Shown here: positions 49,947-52,002 of the stretch, piece after piece
Numbering within the stretch: the stretch's first letter is position 1
Layout: every line of letters begins with the position of its first letter
NCBI RefSeq assembly: GCF_004364175.1
Contig: NZ_SNZW01000011.1
Location: 682,001 to 746,000 of the forward strand
Length of the DNA: 64,000 nucleotides
Source of the DNA: Maribacter caenipelagi
GTDB lineage: Bacteria; Bacteroidota; Bacteroidia; Flavobacteriales; Flavobacteriaceae
Direction: 5' to 3'
Notes under the pieces: generated by a model
What the model saw: only the letters and a program-made list of their open reading frames with translations
Told to the model about the DNA's origin: nothing
The model's database searches: none
Position numbers and translations under genes: made by a program

Positions 49947-51137
49947 TTGAAATCATTAGATCCAAATAATTTATTAAGAACTCCCCCTTCGGGGGCTGGG
50001 GGGCAGGTCGGAATCTACATCCACATCCCATTTTGCAAGCAGGCTTGCCATTATTGTGACTTTCATTTTTCTACCTCTATGTGGAAGAAAGAGGCGATGG
50101 TGAATGCTTTGTGTAAAGAACTGGAGCTCCGAGAAAAAGAATTTTTAGGGGAACAGGTGGCAACCATCTATTTTGGTGGTGGTACGCCTTCTGTTTTGGA
50201 GACCGAAGAAATAGTACGATTGATTAACACCGTTCGTGAGCACTATGATGTTGTGGACATTCCGGAGATTACCTTAGAGGCTAATCCTGATGACCTGTCC
50301 GAAGATAAAATACTTCAGCTGGCAGCGAGTCCTATAAATCGTTTAAGTATAGGTATTCAATCATTTTTTGAGGAAGATCTAAAACTGATGAACCGTGCGC
50401 ATAATGCCTTGGAAGCTGAAAAATGTTTAACATTGGCACGTGAACATTTTAATAATATTTCCATAGACCTAATTTACGGAATGCCGAATATGACCTTAGA
50501 CCGTTGGAAACGGAATATTGAAATAGCACTAGGTTTTGGTATACCGCACATCTCCAGTTATGCCTTAACGGTTGAGCCGAAAACGGCTCTTGCTAAATTT
50601 GTTGAAGACGGATTAATTACTCCCGCTTCTGATGAAGAAACACAAGAACATTTTAACCTATTAAATGACACCTTGCTTGCGGCAGGATTTGACTGTTATG
50701 AGATATCGAATTTTGGAAAGCCAGGATATTATTCCCAAAACAATTCCGCCTATTGGCAACAGAAAAAGTATATAGGTATTGGTCCGTCCGCTCATTCGTT
50801 TGATGGTAAACAACGTGGGTGGAATATTAATAATAATCCGAAATACATTAAATCCATAGAACAAGATATAGTACCTATGGAGGTTGAGGTACTTTCTGCG
50901 ACCGATAAATATAATGAGTATGTCATGACGGGCTTGCGTACGATTTGGGGTGTTTCGTTATCTAGAATAGCGACTGAATTCGGATCGAATTATAAAGAGT
51001 ACATTTTAATGCAAGCCGATAAGTTTTTAGAAGAGCATTTGCTTTTCGTTGATGGTGACATTCTGAAGACCACTAAAAAAGGGATGTTTCTAGCAGACGG
51101 CATTGCGGCTGATTTGTTTATGTTGAATTTGAAATAA
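49947..51137 (+). CDS. hemW: Radical SAM protein HemW (heme chaperone, coproporphyrinogen III oxidase-like)
   Basis: Radical SAM [4Fe-4S] protein of the HemW family, a heme chaperone formerly annotated as HemN-like oxidase. The cluster motif Cys-x3-Cys-x2-Cys is CKQACHYC after GIYIHIPF; YFGGGTPS, ITLEANPDDL and IGIQSF follow, with the HemN C-terminal domain (EYVMTGLRTIWGV). No ATG lies before GIYIHIPF: the region normally holding the start is filled by a C5/G5 repeat (49983-50004, read as PPSGAGG). TTG at 49947, just after the ruvC stop, is chosen; TTG at 49914 overlapping ruvC is the alternative. Confidence 0.9.
   Translation: MKSLDPNNLLRTPPSGAGGQVGIYIHIPFCKQACHYCDFHFSTSMWKKEAMVNALCKELELREKEFLGEQVATIYFGGGTPSVLETEEIVRLINTVREHYDVVDIPEITLEANPDDLSEDKILQLAASPINRLSIGIQSFFEEDLKLMNRAHNALEAEKCLTLAREHFNNISIDLIYGMPNMTLDRWKRNIEIALGFGIPHISSYALTVEPKTALAKFVEDGLITPASDEETQEHFNLLNDTLLAAGFDCYEISNFGKPGYYSQNNSAYWQQKKYIGIGPSAHSFDGKQRGWNINNNPKYIKSIEQDIVPMEVEVLSATDKYNEYVMTGLRTIWGVSLSRIATEFGSNYKEYILMQADKFLEEHLLFVDGDILKTTKKGMFLADGIAADLFMLNLK
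49983..50004 (+). repeat. C5/G5-rich short repeat within hemW 5' end
   Basis: Pattern C5-TTC-G5-CTG-G6-C. It is in inverted orientation to the copy at 49872-49894; the two are about 88 bases apart and could pair over some 20 bases, enclosing the ruvC stop and the hemW start. Confidence 0.85.
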
Positions 51138-51154: not shown

Positions 51155-51252
51155 GGTAAAACGTAATGTCAGTTCGAGTGATTTTTTATTGAAGTGGAAC
51201 GGAAATGAAAAATTGTATCGAGAATATGTTTGGAACACGCGAGCTTCTCGCC
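51155..51252 (+). repeat. Repeat array, copy 1 (left of the GIY-YIG gene)
   Basis: Contains GTCAGTTCGAGTG (51168-51180), the conserved spacer ATTTTTTATTGAAG, TTGTATCGAGAA (51213-51224) and ACGCGAGCTTCTCG (51237-51250). The same ordered blocks recur in copies at 51676-51758 and 51869-51940. The copy is broken at 51250 by the GIY-YIG gene. Confidence 0.85.
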
Positions 51253-51586
51253 TTTACGAGAACTTCTTTCTCGAAAGATTCGGCAATTCGTCGTATTCTC
51301 CTGCAATAAGCGCCCTTTTCTTAGCTTTTGACCACTTTTTAATACGCTTTTCGGTTTCTATTGCCATATTGGGGTCAGTGAATTCACAATAATAGACAAG
51401 AGTGACAGGTCTTCTTTTATTTGTATAGCTATCCGTATATTTTCCTGATTGGTGCGATTCTATCCTTTGAGTAAGGTTAGAGGTTATGCCTGTGTAAAAA
51501 GTGCTATCGGCACATTCCAATATGTAAACATAATAAGTTATCACCTTTTCAATTTACGATTTAGATGGTTAAACGCGAGCTTCTCG
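51237..51586. mobile_element. Putative GIY-YIG cassette bounded by 14-bp direct repeats
   Basis: ACGCGAGCTTCTCG occurs at 51237-51250 and again at 51573-51586, flanking the GIY-YIG gene. Removing one repeat with the intervening DNA would bring TTGTATCGAGAA (51213-51224) next to TTCTCGATACAA (51581-51592), restoring the 12-bp hairpin that is uninterrupted in the related copy at 51721-51762. This is the pattern expected of an insertion with target duplication, or of a repeat element carrying a nuclease gene. No transposase is present. Confidence 0.55.
51254..51544 (-). CDS. Small GIY-YIG nuclease family protein
   Basis: Single-domain nuclease of the GIY-YIG fold (96 aa, GTG start). It has the two strands YYVYILECADSTFYTGIT (Tyr and Gly of the GIY-YIG motif), the conserved Arg in NLTQRIESHQSGK, the Glu in AIETEKRIKKWSKAKKRAL and the C-terminal basic helix. 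Members like this (UPF0213/YhbQ-like) are small stand-alone proteins with unclear roles. The gene almost fills a 336-bp segment between two 14-bp direct repeats (51237-51250 and 51573-51586) and is embedded in a repeat array, which suggests a mobile or repeat-borne cassette rather than a host gene. Confidence 0.9.
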   Translation of the reverse strand: MITYYVYILECADSTFYTGITSNLTQRIESHQSGKYTDSYTNKRRPVTLVYYCEFTDPNMAIETEKRIKKWSKAKKRALIAGEYDELPNLSRKKFS

Positions 51587-52002
51587 ATACAAATTTTCTC
51601 GTGCCTCGAAAATTCACTCGAAGTGACATGAGTACTAGAAACATTCATTTTGTTAGGGTTAATGTTAAACGCTTTGTCAGTTCGAGTGGTTTTTTATTGA
51701 AGAGAATCGAAAATTAAAAATTGTATCGAGAACAGGTTTGGAACACGCAAGCTTTTCGATACCCTCCTCAACGGCGGGCAGGTAAATTTTCTCGTACCTC
51801 AAAAATTCACTCGAAGTGACATGAGCACTAGAAGAAATCATTTTGTTAGGGTAAATGTTAAACGTTTTGTCAGTTCGAGTGATTTTTTATTGAAGTAAAA
51901 CGGAAATGAAAAATTGTATCGAGAACAGGGTTGGAACACGAAAAGGCTTCTTGATTCTCTTTATTACAGTTTATGTATCGAGAACAAGCTAGGAACACGA
52001 AT
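51569..52002. repeat. Repeat array, copies 2-4 (right of the GIY-YIG gene)
   Basis: Two nearly full units of about 190 bases and one partial. Ordered blocks are: CGAGCTTCTCGATAC-like arm, TTTTCTCGT, CACTCGAAGTGACA (51615-51628; 51808-51821), TTTTGTTAGGGT, TGTCAGTTCGAGTG (51675-51688; 51868-51881), TTTTTTATTGAAG, TATCGAGAACA and TTGGAACACG; a terminal fragment with TGTATCGAGAACA lies at 51974-51999. CACTCGAAGTGACA and TGTCAGTTCGAGTG pair in 13 of 14 positions across a 46-base loop in both copies. The 549 bases from 51545 to 52093 contain no gene. Confidence 0.8.

Follow-up and report, generated by a model that had tools for sequence, protein, structure and literature searches.

A small GIY-YIG nuclease gene and the palindrome that encloses it: a likely mobile partnership in Maribacter and related genera

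In Maribacter caenipelagi, the gene of a small GIY-YIG nuclease forms the loop of a composite palindrome, and the linkage between gene and palindrome is lasting, specific to the protein clade, and found at many unrelated places. The nuclease, predicted to be Slx1-like, and the palindrome likely constitute a mobile selfish partnership analogous to REP/RAYT, in which both cutting and movement are inferred. It is supported by the linkage itself, the paired arms of the palindrome, a gene-less orthologous site, decayed copies in the same genome, and the absence of a Y1 transposase accompanying the repeat, all of which are observed.

The window, i.e., the whole stretch of 64,000 nucleotides that was analysed, contains a spacer between a gene that we take to be hemW-like, ending at 51137, and a gene that we take to be cyclase-like. 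This spacer contains an array of one palindromic repeat, with the following features.

51167-51180, no strand: left outer arm TGTCAGTTCGAGTG, the tag TGTC followed by box 1 (inverted repeat I3)
51213-51224, no strand: left inner arm TTGTATCGAGAA, box 2 (inverted repeat I6)
51237-51250, no strand: 14-bp direct repeat ACGCGAGCTTCTCG, copy 1, exact
51254-51544, minus strand: GIY-YIG nuclease ORF (PF01541)
51573-51586, no strand: 14-bp direct repeat ACGCGAGCTTCTCG, copy 2, exact
51581-51592, no strand: right inner arm TTCTCGATACAA (inverted repeat I6)
51615-51628, no strand: right outer arm CACTCGAAGTGACA (inverted repeat I3)
51675-51821, no strand: palindrome unit without a gene, which folds as a nested hairpin
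51868-51942, no strand: half unit, from sequence reading and repeat search
51974-52001, no strand: remnant comprising box 2 and loop (repeat family D2)

The first unit spans 51167-51628 and has the GIY-YIG gene as its loop. The units of the window exhibit TGTCA at both ends, and a 160-nt repeat family has copies at 51083, 51591, and 51784. The gene-less unit is matched in folding by 6 of 200 shuffled sequences. No RNA family of Rfam is found at the GIY-YIG locus; the only Rfam match in the window at the gathering score is the S16-Flavobacteria ribosomal protein leader at 2883-2918.

The preliminary description, made from the sequence alone, had placed one small nuclease gene between two copies of ACGCGAGCTTCTCG and had noted more copies of the same repeat around it. 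Both statements hold, the additional copies being those of the 160-nt family. The 12-bp hairpin reported as intact at 51721-51762 is degenerate, with 9 of the 12 bases of TTCTCGATACAA kept in its right arm, and the view of this hairpin as the unit is only partly correct, the actual unit being larger and comprising outer and inner arms. The 14-bp direct repeats do bound the insert here, as had been claimed, but they are not a signature of the system: among the 11 clade members of the genus set, only that of the window has them, and the near flanks of the other ten have just 5-8 nt in common. They are also located inside the palindrome unit and not outside its ends. What the copies have in common is a pair of palindrome arms enclosing the gene, which forms the loop; the direct repeats are incidental. 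Their interpretation as a target-site duplication was rejected, as they are present in the window's copy only; no target-site duplication was resolved, nor were the element ends resolved against repeat-free spacers.

The ORF is the single one between both copies of ACGCGAGCTTCTCG; it starts with GTG and encodes 96 aa. It exhibits a GIY-YIG domain (Pfam PF01541, E 7e-18) and has no match to any NCBIfam family. The residues Y17, G19, R27, H31, and E65, which we take to be the catalytic positions, are unchanged across 13 homologues. The structure model of the protein has a pLDDT of 86, and the Foldseek search returned UPF0213 BH0048 first (E 4e-6) and then EF2693 (0.002), with Slx1 weak (E 0.01-0.09) and still ahead of UvrC (0.25). 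The phmmer comparison with BH0048 gave 3e-13. Sequence and modelled fold thus predict a UPF0213/Slx1-like GIY-YIG nuclease, for which cleavage is inferred. Stand-alone prokaryotic proteins were placed in the Slx-1 cluster by Dunin-Horkawicz et al. 2006 (PMC1564403), and Slx1 cuts branched DNA (published abstracts). A hairpin would be a fitting target for a structure-specific nuclease, a step that is inferred.

The genome of the window contains 14 copies of the 14-nt repeat end CACTCGAACTGACA, three of them at the locus, so the palindromes recur without the gene; this repeat end is present in 30 of the 36 genomes of the genus. As the reversed pattern gives one match in all 36 genomes, the repeat end cannot be ascribed to chance. 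The protein clade of the window, defined within the genus by at least 62% identity (the next match being at 51%), comprises 16 genes in 14 of the 36 genomes. The median number of repeat ends per genome is 11 with the gene versus 2 without it (Mann-Whitney p 2e-4), an excess that drops to p 0.007 after removal of the copies within 2 kb of the gene. Six of the 22 genomes without the gene carry 6-18 repeat ends, and one genome with the gene (G007) has zero repeat copies away from it. As proof of function, copy number is weak.

hemW was found in 35 of the 36 genomes, and 30 of the spacers were read by eye. The gene is located in this spacer in eight genomes (G000, G008, G011, G019, G022, G023, G041, and G042) and elsewhere in five (G005, G007, G010, G012, and G046); the remaining genome with a clade gene, G049, is the one in which hemW was not found. 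The hemW spacer of G048 has the palindrome and lacks the gene. When the flanks of the window's gene are joined across one 14-mer, the resulting sequence can be aligned with this spacer without a gap along 141 nt, with 13 substitutions, which corresponds to the empty site that had been predicted. The spacers of G003, G018, and G013 exhibit partial repeats, and that of G043, the nearest genome by hemW (93%), has only a remnant like the one at 51974-52001. In most of the other spacers among the 30 read, no repeat was seen by eye.

The linkage extends well beyond the genus. With the clade alignment as query, 582 relatives were confirmed in GTDB genomes, of which the best 80 were kept. Of these 80 loci, one lacks its left flank and 74 extend for at least 200 bp to either side; 60 of the 74 have at least 58% identity, a cut that was chosen after the table had been seen. 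Box 2 (TATCGAGA) is found within 300 bp in 65 of the 74 loci: in 60 of 60 at or above 58% identity and in 5 of 14 below. No clade gene without the palindrome, which would have spoken against the proposal, is therefore found among the 60 loci with full flanks. These represent 40 neighbourhoods and 25 named genera, as counted from the record titles, and box 2 is on both sides in 56 of them. Both boxes are present in 55 of the 60 loci versus 12 of 276 shifted stretches of the same loci. A box is present on either side in 63 of the 80 loci, and in 39 of these the boxes closest to the gene point inwards round it. Three simple loci (L193, L212, and L222) consist of one gene inside one palindrome. 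In L193 and L212, the element is held by the spacer before a gene that we take to be recJ; in the 30 genomes of the genus in which this spacer was read, no repeat is present in G024, G002, and G014, and a different palindrome family, incomplete in some of them, was recognised by eye in eight.

The units share a common layout: a tag GTCA, box 1 ([S]TTCGAG), a freely varying hairpin, and box 2 (ATCGAGAA[S']), arranged as two inverted halves. In 258 distinct units from the named loci, the base following GTCA covaries with the last base of box 2 (G/C 133, C/G 96, C/C 10, G/G 1, others 18), and the same covariation is observed in 92 units of the genus loci (G/C 43, C/G 34, C/C 9, G/G 0, others 6). 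The corresponding p-values are inexact, as the units are related to one another. A stem of at least 6 bp is found between the boxes in 180 of 255 distinct cases, despite the variable sequence, versus 23 of 255 after shuffling. The paired core comprises 4 nt, with a second variable hairpin in its loop. The arms behave as paired stems, and the palindrome is under structural constraint. Tip hairpins can also be seen in other contexts: in the spacer before recJ of the window's genome (L359), a family E REP has the tip hairpin CCGATAGCTATCGG inside its loop, and a hairpin of this type occupies the anticodon arm of a broken tRNA copy in the right flank of L104, as though such tips could be interchanged.

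Other small GIY-YIG genes were scored for their location, and the pattern is broader than had been claimed, with other clades using other palindromes or tRNA genes. We hand-picked 73 small or decayed loci from the window's genome and 39 relatives; this set omits two small or decayed loci (in G017 and G023) and the frames of 218-277 aa. Similarity between the left and right flanks is found in 61 of the 73 loci versus 4 of 109 control ORFs, the other 12 loci being under the threshold. According to hand labels, 41 loci are in REP-like palindromes of six families, 30 are in or beside tRNA genes or parts of them, and two are in neither. The protein clade predicts the setting, with 18 changes on the tree for 16 states versus at least 50 in 500 shuffles; REP and tRNA settings alone are separated by one change versus at least 17. 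With automatic labels, which differ from the hand labels in 4 of 73 cases, there are 21 changes versus at least 49. The 73 loci occupy just 30 neighbourhoods, so part of this agreement between tree and labels reflects shared ancestry of place.

A single repeat for all the GIY-YIG genes of the window's genome was considered and rejected, the other small genes being located in other palindromes or in tRNA genes. One of them (L011) is in neither. Two are decayed, one with three internal stops (L103 2466-2787) and one with one internal stop (L104 2374-2626); of this pair, one is within a different palindrome family and one adjoins a tRNA-Met gene.

At the level of the phylum, 68 loci were assembled, 28 as returned and 40 picked by hand from among the stronger matches. 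Flank similarity is present in 55 of the 68 versus 0 of 65 shifted controls, and a tRNA is nearby in 15 of the 68 versus 1 of the 65. A strict paired-tag pattern, which matches 27 of the 73 loci above and is too narrow for families D and E, was used here solely alongside flank similarity. Any of the three signs is found in 58 of 68 loci versus 4 of 65 controls, and 10 of 68 have no sign. Longer GIY-YIG genes have no flank similarity (0 of 20); these, identified by length, comprise 12 genes of UvrC length and eight of 395-467 aa. One genome of the same family (G102, with L275 and L318) has 23 GIY-YIG domain matches at E <=1e-8. By eye only, the left flank of L320, upstream of its GIY-YIG gene, resembles a piece of a Y1/RAYT transposase.

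For other phyla, the sample consisted of 12 plasmid loci (11 from 35 records and one from nine), without chromosomes. Three of the 12, two from Methylobacterium and one from Planktothrix, have a flank score of at least 30; a Sphingomonas locus has a palindrome on one side by eye, and eight of the 12 have no palindrome. The two Methylobacterium genes have, by eye, CCTC-tagged palindromes on either side. The gene of Planktothrix agardhii plasmid p1 (L263) has GTCATTCTGAG-type repeats on both sides, and its neighbours are an annotated MmeI-type restriction gene and drmA of DISARM. The megaplasmid of Cupriavidus metallidurans CH34 (L264) carries a small GIY-YIG gene without palindromes, directly downstream of what appears by eye to be a 5S rRNA end.

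The tRNA-associated clades exhibit two arrangements. In the first, the order is intact tRNA, gene, and 3' tRNA remnant, with mostly 45-65 bp between the intact tRNA and the gene, and a palindrome is located in the anticodon arm of the remnant (Arg, Ala, Met, Val, and Asp); in the His case, just the last 14 nt match. In the mirror arrangement, the gene is preceded by a 5' remnant (tRNA positions 1-22), and the intact tRNA comes after the gene, as for Arg-cct in L095 and L099 and for Ala in L090. No intact tRNA was found within 600 bp in 4 of the 30 tRNA loci, and no tRNA copy could be aligned in L091 and L094. Both arrangements would fit insertion into an anticodon arm with half of the tRNA carried along, which is an inference. 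Split or partly duplicated tRNA genes with a small GIY-YIG gene can be seen in L105 (3700-4500), L079 (2360-3200), L083 (2350-3550), and L099 (2400-2900), where the anticodon arm of the broken tRNA copy contains a palindrome; L083 and L079 have tandem units of ~0.4 kb.

Based on these observations, we propose the following mechanism. The coding form would be a small Slx1-like GIY-YIG nuclease gene in the loop, and the gene-less units would be its non-coding kin. The nuclease may recognise its own palindrome as a hairpin or cruciform and then nick or cut it, and repair would then fill the break with a copy of the palindrome, which may or may not include the gene, i.e., homing between palindromes, with occasional copying to new sites. 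Sister GIY-YIG clades would do the same with other palindrome families or with tRNA anticodon arms, leaving one complete tRNA. The earlier proposal, in which a repeat family either spreads together with a GIY-YIG nuclease or is its target, following REP/RAYT logic, is thus supported, with cleavage and movement inferred. The gene may have entered repeats that were already there, or the repeats may be relatives of the element that lack the gene. A bolder reading, which in our judgement could as readily prove wrong as right, is that small Slx1-like GIY-YIG nucleases serve the CGTC-tagged REP superfamily as its dedicated enzymes in different phyla. They would then be encoded by very small mobile elements (~0.4-0.5 kb) that insert into hairpin-forming DNA, with one palindrome family per clade, or, in other clades, tRNA anticodon arms, a copy of the broken-off tRNA half being taken along, which would leave one tRNA intact.

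Three other explanations can be considered. Under pure homing, the palindromes would be older and independent, and the nuclease would cut an empty loop and be copied in by repair without ever spreading the palindrome. This is consistent with gene-less palindromes outnumbering genes and occurring in genomes without the gene, with the gene-less palindrome at the orthologous site of G048, and with a tRNA branch that targets a host gene. Nevertheless, the palindrome family switches with the protein clade, which independent repeats need not do, and simple elements of one gene and one palindrome exist (L193, L212, and L222), so we regard pure homing as unlikely. The palindromes might instead be spread by another enzyme, with small intergenic genes landing among them by hitch-hiking, and Y1 transposases do move REPs elsewhere (PMC3733652). 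However, Y1_Tnp (the RAYT/IS200 domain) is found in 10 of the 36 genomes of the genus and not with this repeat: 24 of the 26 fetched matches have no box in the stretch, and the boxes of the remaining two are ~800 bp or more away. RAYT is thereby ruled out as the mobiliser. The clade-specific linkage over 40 neighbourhoods, together with the scarcity of flank similarity around control ORFs (4/109) and longer GIY-YIG genes (0/20), also makes hitch-hiking very unlikely.

In the remaining alternative, the nuclease would serve the host as a genome guard that trims palindrome hairpins and is kept near its substrate. The Slx1-like fold and the ability of the palindromes to fold are in favour of it. 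Such a guard would have no need to be located inside its substrate's loop, to vary by palindrome family, or to occupy many places, and many repeat-bearing genomes lack the gene; we give this explanation very little weight. The partnership of nuclease and palindrome remains the preferred reading, and its interest lies in the CGTC-tagged REPs: REPs are widespread among bacteria, and the enzyme of the CGTC-tagged ones was described as apparently missing in 2013 (PMC3733652); the Slx1-like nuclease is perhaps that enzyme. Its constant association with the palindrome in 25 named genera makes the nuclease a candidate, one that is small and easy to purify, and the question becomes testable. If the partnership is real, it would account for the many tiny GIY-YIG genes of Bacteroidota (up to 23 domain matches per genome). 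The findings also hint at a tRNA-targeting mini-element without an integrase.

With regard to known systems, the claim that none of this kind has been described holds within the open-access literature searched, where GIY-YIG proteins tied to REPs or bacterial tRNA genes were not found; most subscription journals and bioRxiv were not covered. A MITE is a gene-less inverted-repeat element that shares its arms with a coding parent transposon. The present system likewise combines a gene-less element with a coding form that has identical arms in kind, but it has no known transposase and no resolved target-site duplication. The nearest folds and sequences are those of UPF0213/YazA and the Slx1 cluster (PMC1564403), whereas YazA-type genes (L268 and L270) are in an operon with a methyltransferase gene and rsmI, without palindromes. 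GIY-YIG homing endonucleases share the catalytic domain, have their gene within their own target, and occur with empty and filled sites. The G048 hemW spacer is similarly an empty allele that matches the joined flanks. In contrast to homing endonucleases, there is here no intron, no interrupted reading frame, and no one fixed site; the target is a dispersed palindrome or a tRNA arm, and there is no extra DNA-binding domain within the 96 aa.

The CGTC-tagged REPs are short palindromes with an unpaired tag at one end, often in opposite pairs (PMC3733652), and Di Nocera et al. 2013 described CGTC-, TGTC-, and CCTC-tagged REPs as apparently lacking a dedicated transposase (PMC3733652). The tags observed here are mostly TGTC or CGTC, including in paired units of other loci, and family E (CGTCATTGCGAG...) looks close. 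Their stem, however, is 8-9 bp and starts with AT, with a loop of 4-5 nt (PMC3733652), whereas the loop of the window's palindrome is a second variable hairpin. As this family breaks the stem and loop rules of CGTC-tagged REPs, it is a relative at best. No link between GIY-YIG proteins and CGTC-tagged REPs is made in the relevant sections of PMC3733652, and the relevant passages of the RepRanger paper (PMC12306157) contain nothing on an enzyme. The closest parallel in design is REP/RAYT (REPIN): in both systems, an enzyme gene is located between palindromes that also recur without it, and each enzyme lineage has its own palindrome. The enzyme differs, being a Y1 tyrosine transposase there and a GIY-YIG enzyme here, and the partnership, if true, would represent another enzymatic solution, with an unrelated enzyme, for a design like that of REP/RAYT.
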